From a virus: DNA of 34,058 bases. The notes beneath the pieces are model-generated. The model did not search any database. It saw nothing but the letters and a program-made list of their open reading frames with translations, and had not been told where the DNA came from. The position numbers were made by a program, and so were the translations under genes. Shown here piece by piece: positions 15,078 through 33,384 of this stretch (position 1 is the first letter of the stretch; every line of letters starts with the position of its first letter). Location of the stretch: the IMG/VR virus record IMGVR_UViG_3300009494_000011, positions 1 to 34,058 of that record; one strand, written 5' to 3'.

Positions 15078-17408
15078 GTGATCGCGACCTCTGACGCCTA
15101 CAAGACAGCGATTGATGCCGACAGCCGGCAGGTCATTCCCCGGGTGAAGATCGACTACACCGGAGCGCTCATCGATCAGTCGATAGAGCGATCGGCGAAT
15201 GCCGAGTCTGCGCAGTCCATCATCGACCAGGTCGCCGACGGGATCGAGACGCCGACCCGCAAGTGGTGGTCGTGGGCGAACTTCGAGTGGGGGAACACCT
15301 ACTTTCCCAACGACGCGGTGGAGGTTGGGTATCACTCGCGCCAGATCGCCCGCGCCGATAAGACCTTCCTCGAGGGCGGACCGGCGACACTCTTCGGTCG
15401 CAAGATCTACGGCGCCGCTTCCTTCGGAACGTTCGTGAACTACCCGACAGTAGTCGTAGGTTTCTCAGAACGCGCGATGATGTCGGTCAAGGCGGTGTTT
15501 GACGACAAGCACATGGAGTGGGCCGAGGAGTTCACGATCTACGTCTATGACTCATCCGGGGCCCTCCAGCACACCGAGGCGGTGACGGGCAACACCGGCG
15601 TGAAATACGAGGTGCCGATCACTGCGATCCTGGACGCCGGCCGGCAGGAGCTCATCATCAAGAAGTGGAGCCGTGTTGACACGAACGCGAAGGTCCTGGA
15701 GTTTCTCACGAGCGTCTCGGAGACCTATGACGGCGACGAGGTCTTTGATCTGATGGTACTCGAGGAGAGCGAGACGGACGACGCCTCGTTGCCGATCGGG
15801 AACATCAGCGCCAACGCATGCGAAGTCTCAATCCACAACGCCGCTGACAAGTTCAACTACGGCAATGATGAGTCGCCGCTGAACAATCAGATCAAAGAGA
15901 ATCGGCGGATCAGCATCTGGCTATCGGTTGTCGGTGCCGACGATCTCATTCCCCTGGGTGTGTTCTATTCGCGCCACTGGTCGGTTCCTGAGCAGGACCT
16001 CGCTGTCACGGTATCCGGTGAGGACCGGCTGTCACTCATGGCCGAGACGACGTATTCATCCAACGAGATCATCACGGCGGCATCTGATCAGAACTTCTCT
16101 GACGATGCTCTGTCAGGGTGGGTGCTCGACAATATTGTCATGGCCTCCGGCGTGTTCCGGCTCGGCACCGGGTTCCCACTGTCGGATCCCGGCGGCTCGA
16201 TCTTCGCGACCGGTGTCTACGCGGAGCTTGTCTACCGCAGGCCGGCGCGGTCAGGCACGGCGATCCGCACATTCTCCGTCAACTACACCGCGGGCCTCAC
16301 CGTCTACGTCGCAACGTCGTGGGATGCGAACGAACCGGACAATACCGAGGTGATCGTAGAGATCAGCTTTGATGGTACGAACTACGAGAGTACAACCGAT
16401 GGAGGGGTGATTCGCGGGATGTTCGACACCGATATCTCAGGCACCTACGATCTGTACGTCAAGGTCACACTGGTCGAGCGCGGCGGGGATCCCTCCTTCG
16501 ACAGCATCGATATCACCGTGTCCCAGGTGCCGTCCGTCTATTCGATGGCGGTCGCTGTCTGCAAGGACTATGGCTTGTTGACCGGCGAGTACCTGATTGA
16601 CGAAACGCTCGGCGCCTACACGATTGACTATGCCTACCTGAACCCGATCAGTCACCGGGCAGCGCTTGAGAAGATTGCCCAGGCCGCGCTCGCTCGCTGT
16701 TATGTCGATCGATACGACCGGATCATCATGGAATCCGCCGTTGACACACCGGTCGGGACGGAAAAGACCCTCACGAATGACGACTACTATGAGAAAAACA
16801 ACCCGGCGAAAGGCGGGAAGGTCGTCAACGAGGTGATGGTCACATCAGCGCCCCTCGCTCTGGCATCGGTGGCCGAAGAGGTCGCGAGCTCAACCGAGAC
16901 AATCCCGGCAAGCTCGCAAGCCTCATACACGCTTTCTTATGTCGAGAAACCCGTGATGGACGCCGCGCTCGATACTGGATCCCTGGCGGCCGGTGTTTCG
17001 CTCGTCTCGGCCACCTACTACACCTGGGGCGCCGACGTCACGCTCAGCAATGCGAATGGGACAGACACCGAGACGGATATTGTGATCGATGGAAAGCCGC
17101 TGCGCCCTGTCACAGGCAACCGGTACTCGGCATCGAACGCTGCAAGCATCCGAGAGTTTGGGAAGATCACCTATGAGTTTCCGGACAACCATCTGATCCA
17201 ACGTGCAGACGTCTCACAGCTCATCGCTGATACGTTGGTTGATTACTACAAGGTCGACCGGAGAGATATCGAAATCGTCTACCCGGGAGATCCGTCCCTG
17301 TTGCTGAGCGACGTCGTCACCTGTGGCGGAGCATTCCAAGAGGTCCGACAGCGATTCGAGTTTGACGGAGCGCTTGAGGCATTGATTGAGGGGAGGGCTG
17401 TTGTATGA
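15078..17408 (+). CDS. Large tail tip / hub protein
   Basis: 776 residues starting with GTG 15078 after GAGGAGGT at 15063-15070. The opening MIATSDAYKTAIDADSRQV resembles tail proteins that begin with a short TSxAYKxAI helix and then a beta-rich body. The middle has EVSIHNAADKFNYGN and an RISIWLSVVGADDLIPLGVF stretch, which fits a hub-type domain. The C-terminal part (ISHRAALEKIAQAALARCYVD) resembles receptor-complex hub folds. Its length and place after the distal tail gene suggest a Tal-like baseplate hub. No lysozyme motif was seen. Confidence 0.6.
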   Translation: MIATSDAYKTAIDADSRQVIPRVKIDYTGALIDQSIERSANAESAQSIIDQVADGIETPTRKWWSWANFEWGNTYFPNDAVEVGYHSRQIARADKTFLEGGPATLFGRKIYGAASFGTFVNYPTVVVGFSERAMMSVKAVFDDKHMEWAEEFTIYVYDSSGALQHTEAVTGNTGVKYEVPITAILDAGRQELIIKKWSRVDTNAKVLEFLTSVSETYDGDEVFDLMVLEESETDDASLPIGNISANACEVSIHNAADKFNYGNDESPLNNQIKENRRISIWLSVVGADDLIPLGVFYSRHWSVPEQDLAVTVSGEDRLSLMAETTYSSNEIITAASDQNFSDDALSGWVLDNIVMASGVFRLGTGFPLSDPGGSIFATGVYAELVYRRPARSGTAIRTFSVNYTAGLTVYVATSWDANEPDNTEVIVEISFDGTNYESTTDGGVIRGMFDTDISGTYDLYVKVTLVERGGDPSFDSIDITVSQVPSVYSMAVAVCKDYGLLTGEYLIDETLGAYTIDYAYLNPISHRAALEKIAQAALARCYVDRYDRIIMESAVDTPVGTEKTLTNDDYYEKNNPAKGGKVVNEVMVTSAPLALASVAEEVASSTETIPASSQASYTLSYVEKPVMDAALDTGSLAAGVSLVSATYYTWGADVTLSNANGTDTETDIVIDGKPLRPVTGNRYSASNAASIREFGKITYEFPDNHLIQRADVSQLIADTLVDYYKVDRRDIEIVYPGDPSLLLSDVVTCGGAFQEVRQRFEFDGALEALIEGRAVV

Positions 17409-18007
17409 GCTGGGGCGGTACGAAGAGTTGGAGTCTGACTGATGAGCCCGTGCTCGGAGACGCGAACCGGATCGAGCGGAATCTGGACTGGCTCTACGAA
17501 CGTGTGTCCTGCGACGTGGGATTGGTTGGCTACTTCCCGGTGTCCAGCGCTGATCGGCATCTGCTATGCAACGGCGCGACGATCAGCAAAACATCGGAGC
17601 CGGAGTACACCGAGCTGGTGAACCATCTCAAGGCAGAAGCCGGCGGTGACTCCACTCACCCGTACTATCACGCCGACCAGGACAAGGCCAAGGTTCCGGA
17701 TCTTGATTCAGTATTCATCCGGGGCATGATGTCCGGTCGGAAGTCCGGCGAGTACCAGGGGAACGCGCTACGAAATCACCTGCATCAGACGGTGATAGGC
17801 TCGCACGATCACGAGATCATCAGAGGTGATGGCGTCGGCCACGCTGGGATTCAGGTCCAGAAACAGACAACCTCGTATACTCCGCCTGAAGCCGTCGACA
17901 CCAGCAGCACGGATCTGGGGACGAAGACATCCGGGAATCCGACGTCTGGCGGAGCGACAGAGAGCAGACCGGATAATGTTACGCTCTACCCGCTCATCAT
18001 GTATTGA
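17405..18007 (+). CDS. Tail-collar fibre protein, copy 1
   Basis: 200 residues in an ATGA overlap. It has a short N-terminal attachment helix (DANRIERNLDWLYERV), a collar-like middle (LLCNGATISK...PEYTELVNHLKAEAGG) and a conserved PDLDSVFIRGM stretch typical of phage tail-collar domains, then a His-rich region (NHLHQTVIGSHDHEI). The end, RPDNVTLYPLIMY, matches collar proteins ending RPxNVxxxxxI. The next gene is a paralogue: bases 17739-17935 and 18343-18539 are nearly identical. Confidence 0.8.
   Translation: MSWGGTKSWSLTDEPVLGDANRIERNLDWLYERVSCDVGLVGYFPVSSADRHLLCNGATISKTSEPEYTELVNHLKAEAGGDSTHPYYHADQDKAKVPDLDSVFIRGMMSGRKSGEYQGNALRNHLHQTVIGSHDHEIIRGDGVGHAGIQVQKQTTSYTPPEAVDTSSTDLGTKTSGNPTSGGATESRPDNVTLYPLIMY
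17739..17935 (+). repeat. Direct repeat, copy A (collar duplication)
   Basis: About 197 bases nearly identical to 18343-18539 (about 8 differences by hand, offset 604). It encodes the His-rich C-terminal part of the first collar protein. Confidence 0.9.
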
Positions 18008-18014
18008 GGTGTGA

Positions 18015-18611
18015 ATGGCTGTTGAAACGATCACCTGGACACCATACCGAGCGGTCACCCCGGACGAGTTCAACCGCATCGAGGATGGCCTGCAGTGGCT
18101 CTATGACCGGATCTCCGGAGGGGTCGGTCGGTTTGGGTGGTTTCCGCATCGCGACGTTCCTCAGCATCTGCTCTGTGACGGGAGCGTGATCACCAGTAAC
18201 GACCCGCGTTATGTCGAGCTCGTCGCGATGCTCAAGACCGAGGCCGGCGCAGACACGTCACACCCGTACTATCACGCCGACTCTGACAAGGCTGTCCTGC
18301 CGGACCTGGTCGGCCGATTCACTCGCGGAATGGGTGGCTCCAGGAAGTCCGGCGAGTACCAGGGGAACGCGGTACGGAACCACCTACATCAGACGGTGAT
18401 AGGCTCGCACGATCACGAGATCATCAGAGGTGATGGCGTCAACCACGCTGGGATTCAGGTCCAGAAACAGACAACCTCGTATACTCCGCCTGAAGCCGTC
18501 GACACCAGCAGCACGGATCTCGGGACGAAGACGTCCGGGGACCCCACGTCCGGCGGGGCGAGCGAAGAGCGTCCGGATAACGTCACGATGTGGCCAATGA
18601 TTCGGTATTGA
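18015..18611 (+). CDS. Tail-collar fibre protein, copy 2
   Basis: 198 residues, paralogous to the preceding gene along its length. N-terminal parts have diverged (MAVETITWTPYRAVTPDEFN against MSWGGTKSWSLTDEPVLGDA) while the C-terminal region is nearly the same at DNA level. It keeps the collar marks HLLCDGSVIT, LPDLVGRFTRGM and NHLHQTVIGSHDHEI and ends RPDNVTMWPMIRY. The pattern suggests recent duplication or gene conversion of the C-terminal half, with the N-terminal half diverging. The two proteins may form hetero-trimers or alternate on the tail tip. Confidence 0.8.
   Translation: MAVETITWTPYRAVTPDEFNRIEDGLQWLYDRISGGVGRFGWFPHRDVPQHLLCDGSVITSNDPRYVELVAMLKTEAGADTSHPYYHADSDKAVLPDLVGRFTRGMGGSRKSGEYQGNAVRNHLHQTVIGSHDHEIIRGDGVNHAGIQVQKQTTSYTPPEAVDTSSTDLGTKTSGDPTSGGASEERPDNVTMWPMIRY
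18343..18539 (+). repeat. Direct repeat, copy B (collar duplication)
   Basis: Partner of 17739-17935. The longest run without difference spans the HQTVIGSHDHEIIRGDGV codons. Confidence 0.9.
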
Positions 18612-24973: not shown

Positions 24974-25260
24974 ACAATCCCGAAATCACCCTGACACCGG
25001 AACAGACGGTCCGTGTCACTGATCAGATCATCGGGGCTTCCCTGAGCGTTGAAAGCAGGATCGACATGGTCCTCCGATCGAAGAGTGAGCTGAAGCTGCT
25101 CGGAGACCCGAAGAAGATCCGGCGGAACATCAGGGCGTCATTCACCTATGACGCGATCAAGCTGGCGATCGCTGAGGAGATCATGGCGAATCCGCCGCTC
25201 TACGGTCACCAATTCAAGGACGCCTTCGAGCGACGCTGCAGAGAGGTCCTCGGTTCATGA
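24970..25260 (+). CDS. Hypothetical early protein
   Basis: 96 residues, ATG 24970 after GGAGGT and overlapping the upstream stop. Helical, with LTPEQTVRVTDQIIGASLSV and a C-terminal AIKLAIAEEIMANPP stretch. It ends in an ATGA overlap with the resolvase gene, so it may function with it. No family recognised. Confidence 0.6.
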   Translation: MNNPEITLTPEQTVRVTDQIIGASLSVESRIDMVLRSKSELKLLGDPKKIRRNIRASFTYDAIKLAIAEEIMANPPLYGHQFKDAFERRCREVLGS

Positions 25261-25772
25261 GCTGGATCCGTGTCGCTTGCATCGAAGTATCCGGGGATCC
25301 GGTTGCTCAGCCCCGCCCCCGGGCATTCGTGCGCCCGAACGGCAAAGCCTCGGTCATGGACAACGGGAAGTCCCGGCCGTGGAAGGCGCTCATCATCGGA
25401 ACCGCGGCATTCCTGAAGGTTCCGCGCGAACTCACCGGACCGATCCGGCTGCGGATCCTCTACCTGTTGCCGCGGCCGCAACGGTTACTGCGCCCGAGCT
25501 CGCCCTACGGCCTGGTGCCGCATGTGAACGTGCCGGACATCGACAACCTGGACAAGGCGGTGATGGACGCTCTCAGCGATTACGGCGTCTGGAAGGACGA
25601 TCGCCAGGTGTGCCAGCTGGTATCGAGCAAGTGGTATCACGGGCGAACAGGCAAACCAGGCGCAACCGTAGTCATAGATCAACTCGAGGCAGGCGCTGCG
25701 ACGGATGACAACTGGGAGGACGTCGTCGGCAGCCTGCTCGGAGAGCAAATAGCAATCGGGGGCACGCAGTGA
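25257..25772 (+). CDS. rusA: RusA-like Holliday junction resolvase
   Basis: 171 residues. The RusA signature is clear: basic early part with QPRPRAFVRPNGK, then VPDIDNLDKAVMDALSDYGVWKDDRQV, where Asp94, Asp96 and Asp99 (plus the KDD motif near 113-115) form the metal site. These dimeric nucleases cut four-way DNA junctions during phage recombination or before packaging. The stop at 25770-25772 lies inside the 5' part of the tRNA-like RNA that follows. Confidence 0.9.
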   Translation: MSWIRVACIEVSGDPVAQPRPRAFVRPNGKASVMDNGKSRPWKALIIGTAAFLKVPRELTGPIRLRILYLLPRPQRLLRPSSPYGLVPHVNVPDIDNLDKAVMDALSDYGVWKDDRQVCQLVSSKWYHGRTGKPGATVVIDQLEAGAATDDNWEDVVGSLLGEQIAIGGTQ

Positions 25773-25867
25773 CGGATGCGCTCGGCATTTCCCAGTTCCC
25801 CCGCCGCGGACAATTCCCAACGGTTCGCTGCAAAATGCCGAGGCCGGTTCGATTCCGGTTGCTCCCA
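25758..25867 (+). ncRNA. tRNA-like structured RNA, candidate mini tmRNA-like domain
   Basis: Four helices fold by hand. Acceptor-like: GGGGGCA (25758-25764) with TGCTCCC (25860-25866), one G-U. D-like arm: CGCA/TGCG at 25765-25768 and 25777-25780. Long central stem: CTCGGCATTT (25781-25790) with AAATGCCGAG (25833-25842), 10 perfect bp around a 42-base loop. T arm: 25843-25847 with 25855-25859, loop TTCGATT, one G-U. A73-like A at 25867, then AAC rather than CCA. The central stem directly abuts the T arm with no variable loop, as P2 does in tmRNA; there is no anticodon arm. It is not an ordinary tRNA. Alternatives: a decayed tRNA or an attachment-site remnant. Confidence 0.5.
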
Positions 25868-25869
25868 AA

Positions 25870-25963
25870 CACACTGGGTTTTTCGACCTCCTTTCCCCGG
25901 TGTGGATGAGTCCGGGCTCAGTAACCCGGGGATGGACGCGCTCATGCCTGGTCCACGGTGGAC
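25870..25963 (+). other. Chain of hairpins after the tRNA-like RNA
   Basis: Three stems follow in line: CACACTGGG (25870-25878) with CCCGGTGTG (25896-25904), 9 bp with one G-U; TCCGGG (25911-25916) with CCCGGG (25925-25930); GTCCAC (25951-25956) with GTGGAC (25958-25963). No good reading frame with a ribosome site covers 25773-26029. The stretch may be an extension or a 3' processing element of the RNA. Confidence 0.4.
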
Positions 25964-26029
25964 GGTGGTGCTAAAGCCGGGCGTTATTTCATAGGGGCCG
26001 CGATCTGAGGACGCGGGAAGGAGATGTTG

Positions 26030-26272: not shown

Positions 26273-26279
26273 TGCGCAT

Positions 26280-26351
26280 CGTGGGGTAGAGCAGCGGTAG
26301 CTCGCCAGGCTCATAACCTGGAGGTCGCCGGTTCGAGTCCGGCCCCCGCTA
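26280..26351 (+). tRNA. tRNA-Met (CAU), initiator-like
   Basis: All arms fold: acceptor 26280-26286 with 26344-26350; D stem GAGC/GCTC; anticodon stem CCAGG/CCTGG with loop CTCATAA (CAT at 26312-26314); variable loop of five; T stem GCCGG/CCGGC with TTCGAGT; discriminator A26351. The 1-72 position is a C-U mismatch and the D stem has A11-U24, both marks of initiator tRNAs. Only two of the three usual G-C pairs at the bottom of the anticodon stem are present. CCA is not encoded (TCA follows the A), so host CCA addition is needed. Confidence 0.93.
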
Positions 26352-26365
26352 TCAGGAGGATCGAT

Positions 26366-32707: not shown

Positions 32708-33384
32708 GACGCTACGTATCGGGCGATTTCGCGACTCTCGAGACGATGTCCAGGCGCTGGGTGCAGGCGCAGACAGTGAGTAACGAGCTTCACAAGGTCA
32801 CCGGCAAGGAGCCGGAACCGGTTCGCCATCTCGATGCTGTTGACGGTCTCTTGATGGGGCTGATAGAACACCTCGAGCGCAGCGAGAACCCAACGGTCAA
32901 TCGCCTGAAGCGTGACGGCATGGTTCGATTTGACACCGGTTTTGTCCTGGACAACATGCCGTCGCTACACATCGGGGAGCGCTCGCTGCGACAGCGTTTG
33001 GACAAGCTTGAGGAGTCCGGCTGTCTCCTCCGCAAGACGGTTGCGCTCGGACGAGAGCGCGGATCGAACCGGTACGTGCGCCGGTCACCGGTCTGGTGCC
33101 GAGTCGCCGGGGCTCTTGACCAGGCGATGGACGACAACCTTAACCTGGTCATTGAGCGGCTGGTGGAGGATTTAGACCGGCAATCTGCTTCCGGTCTAAA
33201 CGACAACGAGGATTTAGACCGGCAATCTGCTTCCGGTGCCTATGAGCGGCAATCTGCTTCCGGTGCCTATGAGCGGCAATCTGCTTCCGGTCAGATAGAT
33301 ACTGATAGTAAGGGAAAGAAAGAACGGGAAGGCCTTGAACTTCTGGACAGTCTCCCGTGGAAGACGGGCGCCCCTTGCGCGTAG
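32704..33384 (+). CDS. Replication initiator-like protein containing iterons
   Basis: 226 residues, probably starting at TTG 32704, eight bases after GGGAGG. Residues ~90-120 (MPSLHIGERSLRQRLDKLEESGCLLR) resemble a winged helix of phage/plasmid replication initiators. The C-terminal region holds a 9-residue repeat: DLDRQSASG twice and AYERQSASG twice, coded by four exact 18-base DNA iterons. This is the lambda O arrangement, with the origin inside the initiator gene. It could instead be only a phage regulatory protein with repeats. Confidence 0.65.
   Translation: MRRYVSGDFATLETMSRRWVQAQTVSNELHKVTGKEPEPVRHLDAVDGLLMGLIEHLERSENPTVNRLKRDGMVRFDTGFVLDNMPSLHIGERSLRQRLDKLEESGCLLRKTVALGRERGSNRYVRRSPVWCRVAGALDQAMDDNLNLVIERLVEDLDRQSASGLNDNEDLDRQSASGAYERQSASGAYERQSASGQIDTDSKGKKEREGLELLDSLPWKTGAPCA
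33171..33200. repeat. Perfect 10-bp inverted repeat in the iteron region
   Basis: TTTAGACCGG (33171-33180) and CCGGTCTAAA (33191-33200) form a perfect dyad around a 10-base spacer. It includes the first 18-base iteron. Confidence 0.75.
33178..33291 (+). repeat. Iteron array, four copies of an 18-base unit (putative origin)
   Basis: CGGCAATCTGCTTCCGGT occurs at 33178-33195, 33220-33237, 33247-33264 and 33274-33291, with start spacings of 42, 27 and 27. Each copy has ACCGG/CCGGT-like half sites at its ends. An A-rich stretch (about 33292-33335) follows, as in lambda-type origins. It lies inside the initiator-like gene. Confidence 0.8.

Follow-up and report, generated by a model that had tools for sequence, protein, structure and literature searches.

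An anticodon-less tRNA-like RNA at the end of rusA in a phage contig, and tRNA-like RNAs of altered architecture in other viral genomes

The locus and the fold of the RNA

The window (i.e. the whole stretch of DNA that was analysed, a 34,058-base IMG/VR contig) carries genes for terminase, portal, tape-measure and RusA proteins. The Holliday junction resolvase gene rusA (25257..25772, + strand) runs at its 3' end into a 110-nt tRNA-like RNA without an anticodon arm (25758..25867, + strand), which was delineated by its fold, by shuffles and by a geometric descriptor, and which is made up of an acceptor, a D-like arm, a long central arm, a T arm and a discriminator base (A73). RusA possesses a 27-residue C-terminal tail that is missing in its nearest relative (the phage G001) and that reaches into the RNA; as the stop codon (TGA, 25770..25772, + strand) lies within the D-like loop, the overlap with the end of rusA noted in the preliminary description of this DNA is real. 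An ordinary tRNA-Met(CAT) is found downstream of the RNA (26279..26353, + strand) and is the only canonical tRNA that ARAGORN and Rfam recognise in the window, while the prediction of promoters and terminators on the + strand near the RNA returned none. The 156 nt that separate the RNA from the following ORF (25868-26023) are possibly structured, as judged by eye.

The acceptor (5' strand GGGGGCA, 25758..25764, pairing with 25860-25866; 3' strand UGCUCCC plus the discriminator A, 25860..25867, where A73 is position 25867 and CCA is not encoded) comprises 7 bp, with a single G.U at 4:69 and a G3-C70 pair at 3:70. Directly stacked on it, without the 8-9 linker, is the D-like arm (CGCA-GUGACGGA-UGCG, 25765..25780), which has a 4-bp stem (CGCA/UGCG, 25765-25768/25777-25780) and a loop that contains GACGG, as does RNA 2 of the related phage G028 (see below). 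The anticodon arm is replaced by a central arm (CUCGGCAUUU/AAAUGCCGAG, 25781..25842), supported by both the fold and the shuffles, in which a 10-bp helix that is Watson-Crick throughout (25781-25790/25833-25842) bears a 42-nt loop. The T arm (GCCGG-UUCGAUU-CCGGU, 25843..25859) follows, with a 5-bp stem (25843-25847/25855-25859) that includes one G.U. In total 24 of the 26 pairs are Watson-Crick (the other 2 being G.U), and the four stems stack in a flush four-way junction with zero linker bases. Since it has no unpaired linkers, the RNA is devoid of tRNA positions 8-9 and of the variable loop, both of which a real tRNA requires.

The structure proposed in the preliminary description is identical to the MFE fold of 25758-25867 (-49.8 kcal/mol, z -2.82): its coordinates were exact, all the upper-half tRNA elements (7-bp acceptor, D-like arm, TTCGATT T arm) are recovered, and the 10-bp helix with its 42-base loop does take the place of the anticodon stem and abut the T arm, through a junction that is cleaner than had been claimed. 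Among 200 shuffles none was as stable as the RNA. In a conditional test (T arm and 3' acceptor strand fixed, 320 nt upstream shuffled with dinucleotides kept) a flush central helix of at least 7 bp appeared in 0/20,000 shuffles, the observed one having 10 bp. Furthermore, a strict geometric descriptor yielded 2 matches in 5.2 Mb (the window RNA and an RNA on the contig L484, described below) and 0 in five shuffled copies. Taken together, these results uphold the earlier view that chance pairing is unlikely, and confirm the structure that had been described.

Known RNA families and a second RNA of the same plan

ARAGORN, run on the window, missed the RNA at 25758-25867 and found no tmRNA; Rfam at gathering thresholds passed the tRNA-Met alone and placed 25758-25867 in no family; and a permissive Rfam scan (251 bases) gave no RF00023 match to the RNA, its match to tRNA-Sec (RF01852) being sub-threshold (21.1 vs 47 bits). 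Thus, none of the covariance models that had been suggested for it (tRNA, tmRNA and Y RNA) matched the window RNA. The bacterial Y RNAs (YrlA) are known tRNA mimics; a Y RNA identity, raised earlier, found no Rfam match, and the window RNA differs from them in having an acceptor stem. With tRNA (RF00005), class II tRNA and tRNA-Sec it shares the 7-bp acceptor, the UUCGAUU T arm (a UUCRANN loop) and A73, but it lacks the anticodon arm (no 5-bp arm with a 7-nt loop is present), the 8-9 linker and the variable loop, and it scores below the RF00005 gathering threshold.

With tmRNA (RF00023) the window RNA shares a tRNA-like domain (TLD) and a long helix beside the T arm that replaces the anticodon arm (P2 in tmRNA; 10 bp and flush with the T stem in the window RNA). 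However, neither an mRNA-like domain with a tag reading frame nor pseudoknots were found in the window RNA (110 nt, of which 42 nt form the central loop), and two tmRNA signatures are missing from it: G3.U70 (it has G3-C70, and a G.U at 4:69 instead) and the unpaired D loop with GGNUUCGAC (it has GUGACGGA, closed by a 4-bp stem). Moreover, the model R1, which represents tmRNAs reduced to the tRNA-like domain (TLD-only), gave 19.3 bits for the window RNA as against up to 27.6 bits for ordinary tRNAs. Because G3·U70 and GGNUUCGAC are absent, we do not assign it as a tmRNA domain; at most, it may work like a TLD-only tmRNA. The likeness to the tmRNA TLD in a far smaller RNA, pointed out in the preliminary description, proved a useful lead, since RNAs of this kind do exist in relatives (G047 and G028) and among numerous further phages; it is the window RNA itself that fails on both signatures and on the R1 score.

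Searches for sequence homologues of the window RNA found none: BLAST against phages and plasmids gave nothing useful and its exact 3'-end pattern had 0 matches in IMG/VR. Anticodon-less phage tRNAs were not described in the open literature covered. An RNA of the same architecture nevertheless exists on an otherwise unrelated contig, L484 (IMGVR_UViG_3300037400_003892), at L484:3976-3870(-). This contig was brought in by a GGGG...GACGG...T arm pattern (116 stretches, mostly other things, with six loci, including G028, passing the acceptor test), and the RNA was then found separately with the single-sequence model R2 (30.7 bits, E 0.0024, where E-values come from short calibrations). As ordinary-length tRNA-like matches reach similar R2 scores, the score was rejected as a classifier in favor of the geometric descriptor, and the likeness of the two RNAs rests on geometry. 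The L484 RNA (GGGAGCG / CGGG-GACGG-CCCG / G / AGGCGC-(48 nt)-GCGCCU / G / GGCGG-UUCAAAU-CCGCC / CGCUCCC / A CCA; fold z -2.70) has a flush D arm with a GACGG loop, a central helix that is flush to one nucleotide, a 48-nt loop and an encoded CCA, and it begins 7 nt past the stop codon of the upstream ORF, a gene that differs from rusA. The sequences of its stems are unlike those of the window RNA, yet all of them pair, and a MAFFT alignment of the window, L484 and G028 RNAs revealed no sequence similarity outside the T arm and acceptor. The features that we propose as defining an L484-type RNA (a GACGG-bearing D arm and a central helix that are both flush, a 40-50-nt loop, and a T arm) occur together, within the 5.2 Mb, in the window and L484 alone; two sequences are too few to establish a common origin.

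tRNA-like RNAs in related phages and TLD-only tmRNAs

The closest phage, G001 (terminase 71% and RusA 58% identical, best segments), has a T arm 0.3 kb downstream of rusA; as this locus offered three candidate acceptors, a z close to 0 and no clear cloverleaf, we did not treat it as a homologue. A tRNA 3'-half-like sequence without a 5' half (L062:2007, i.e. G001:19006) is possibly the attP of G001, which encodes a tyrosine recombinase at L062:14611-15453. A full-length phage tmRNA (L007:2850-3271, tag GNTLETLATLGLVREDAVVAA), which an M23 peptidase homologue follows at a distance of 0.7 kb, was considered as an ancestor in the same place; this reading was abandoned since L007 comes from an AT-rich phage that is otherwise unrelated.

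Viral DNA related through terminase or rusA (1.34 Mb) contains 28 strict T arms against 2.2 expected, the expectation deriving from mononucleotide shuffles; the choice of loci relied in part on patterns with T arms in them. ARAGORN calls nine of the 28 (three of these being odd in length), and most lie outside any canonical tRNA. The phage G028 (terminase 49% and RusA 38% identical to the window) has an array of three consecutive tRNA-like RNAs (L168:1320-1917 / L261) immediately upstream of rusA, of which two have G3·U70 and tmRNA (RF00023) scores of 32.8 and 29.9 bits; the first RNA of this array is possibly a minihelix of 44 nt (GCAGGA...T arm...UCCUGC) with an 8-nt linker. In G026, G071, L069 and L181, as well as in two bacterial contigs from spirochaete MAGs (L082 and L083), there are also T arms whose anticodon arm is enlarged, shortened or absent. 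All these tRNA-like RNAs are not one family; they have in common the upper half of a tRNA, and none retains a normal anticodon arm. Separately, we noted tRNA genes of phages or prophages in which the D and T arms are normal and the anticodon arm is enlarged (L395:2096-1997(-); L484:3535-3425(-), with RF00005 47 bits and 46 nt in the anticodon arm; L082:1120 and 1510), as well as a D-armless tRNA-like RNA (L250:1501-1566, in G071) in which a 9-bp hairpin carries a 7-nt loop, CUUUUAA, that resembles a Lys anticodon loop.

The G047 RNA (62 nt) is an end-to-end match to RF00023 at 56.2 bits, above the Rfam tmRNA threshold, although it consists of the tRNA-like domain only, terminated by ACCA; it exactly fills the gap between the TGA of one gene and the next Shine-Dalgarno sequence (L262:1559-1498(-), i.e. 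G047:33546-33604). A pattern made from it matched at least 120 IMG/VR stretches, and at least 67 loci on viral contigs (within L265-L384) carry at least 53 distinct TLD-only RNAs (59-81 nt) with an acceptor, a tmRNA D loop, helix P2, a T arm and nothing further. The D-loop motif and the acceptor CC were selected by the pattern and carry no evidence value; G3·U70, a position left free in the pattern, is present in 53/53 distinct RNAs among the matches listed, of which 17/53 encode CCA. In an alignment of 39 sequences 97.4% of the cells pair and 6/6 P2 pairs change on both sides (the alignment was fitted to the structure, so these counts lean towards it), and neither shuffles nor slid structures come anywhere near the real covariation. 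None of the 37 RNAs tested overlaps an ARAGORN call. Two cultured Streptomyces phages, pSt2308 and LuckySocke, have a TLD-only RNA within their tRNA cluster where no feature is annotated (L501:1501-1578; L502:1501-1578).

The open literature covered records one phage TLD-only case, that of mycobacteriophage DS6A (PMC4131195; PMC11915505), which hereby becomes a family of at least 53 distinct members with strong covariation and an invariant G3·U70. A 2014 tmRNA survey states that a DS6A-like molecule, whether chargeable or not, strongly inhibits tmRNA and perhaps titrates SmpB (PMC4131195). As judged by its published description, the DS6A RNA (tmRNA Website tmID 11587) shares with the window RNA an acceptor, a D-like loop, a helix in place of the anticodon arm, a T arm and the absence of a tag frame, whereas the window RNA is without G3.U70 or the GGNUUCGAC D loop, its D arm is paired and its central arm is longer (10-bp, 42-nt loop). 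The CDS-less plastid and mitochondrial tmRNAs are likewise comparable, as tmRNA-type RNAs that are reduced to a tRNA-like domain (~65 bp in two plastids; PMC11915505), but they are organellar and homologous to tmRNA.

Possible roles of the window RNA

As a long hairpin replaces its anticodon arm, the window RNA cannot decode; and as related phages carry other such RNAs, including stripped-down tmRNAs, it probably mimics tRNA without decoding. We tentatively propose that it is a phage tRNA mimic, which may act as a decoy or competitor for a host tRNA-handling factor; its function, transcription, processing, CCA addition, target and benefit to the phage are what we infer. The RNA would be co-transcribed with rusA. 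RNase P recognises stacked acceptor and T stems and, provided that the transcript folds, would thus probably cut at 25757|25758; the 3' end would then be matured at A25867, and a host enzyme would add CCA. The mature RNA might occupy a host factor with affinity for the elbow and acceptor of tRNA (such as EF-Tu, SmpB or a defence nuclease that targets tRNA), in a competitor or decoy role parallel to that proposed for TLD-only tmRNA. Since RNase P cleavage would strip the rusA stop from the transcript, maturation of the RNA and translation of rusA would compete.

In favor of the mimic we count the intact stems, the shuffles, the absence of an Rfam or ARAGORN identity, the shared plan of L484, the excess of T arms and the occurrence of TLD-only tmRNAs both in a relative and widely. 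Against it stand the absence of a sequence homologue, the G001 locus without a clear cloverleaf, the absence of a predicted promoter or terminator nearby, the lack of SmpB and AlaRS identity elements in the RNA, and the consideration that a ribosome finishing rusA would disturb the folding of its 5' part.

A less probable, though still serious, explanation is that of a former decoding tRNA gene that lost this role through expansion or replacement of its anticodon arm, persisting either as a cleavage point for RNase P and tRNase Z ('punctuation') in a compact operon or as a relic. The enlarged anticodon arms beside normal D and T arms (L484:3535-3425, L082, L083, L069, G026 and G047) are in line with it, as is the fact that several such RNAs sit behind a stop codon and ahead of the Shine-Dalgarno sequence that follows, but ordinary tRNAs also fill such gaps in compact phage genomes (e.g. 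the tRNA-Met of the window). Moreover, with the 8-9 linker and variable loop missing as well, the window RNA is not a simple insertion into a tRNA, and its stems are perfect, unlike those of a decaying gene. We regard it as unlikely that the RNA is a TLD-only tmRNA which has diverged and which, by binding SmpB, blocks trans-translation in the host: the overall geometry, the tmRNA-like TLDs of relatives (G047 at 56.2 bits, G028 at 33 and 30 bits) and the GACGG shared with G028 RNA 2 would fit, yet its G3-C70 contrasts with the G3.U70 of every TLD-only RNA among the matches listed, it has no GGNUUCGAC, its D arm has a stem, and under R1 it falls below the score that ordinary tRNAs can attain.

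It is rather improbable that the structure is a cis-acting 3' element of the rusA message (a stabiliser, a processing site or an end regulator) and not a separate RNA. Its overlap with the final codons and the stop of rusA, and the absence of a predicted promoter of its own, agree with this; however, a plain 3' hairpin has no need of a consensus T arm, an acceptor and a discriminator, and the L484 RNA, although built alike, lies behind another gene and begins after the stop codon of that gene. The integrase-target remnant put forward in the preliminary description (i.e. a former tRNA attachment site, or attP core) is very unlikely, since attP cores contain just the tRNA 3' half (PMC10865867) and the 5' half of the window RNA pairs fully; the last 25 nt do resemble a tRNA 3' end, and the nearest relative combines a T arm similar to a tRNA 3' half (L062:2007) with a tyrosine recombinase, but those window proteins that were compared with Pfam included no integrase. 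A T arm that arose by accident, with chance pairing around it, for which one might cite the many searches made and the single RNA of the exact plan in the window, has next to no probability in view of the conditional shuffles, the empty shuffled 5.2-Mb copies and the z of -2.8.

On the premise that the window RNA is a tRNA mimic, we further suggest, with greater reserve, that it founds with the L484 RNA a class of phage RNAs not described so far (cloverleaves in which the anticodon arm is missing, the D arm is flush and the central arm long) that may have evolved to occupy a host tRNA-binding factor, beside a widespread, largely unannotated family of TLD-only tmRNAs that would interfere with ribosome rescue. 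Phage tRNAs are usually taken as decoding aids; RNAs that keep the tRNA elbow without decoding point to another use, that of capturing or misleading tRNA-handling factors. It thereby becomes testable whether phages use a minimal tmRNA to inhibit or redirect trans-translation, and the question arises whether the window RNA is a version of it in which the alanine identity was lost.

Two further features of the window were noted outside this locus: in-frame repeats encoding RQSASG (33166-33291), within a 226-aa protein without a Pfam or PHROG match, and a tandem duplication (17405-18611) that comprises two adjoining genes of ~200 codons, the last 271 nt of which are 88% identical.
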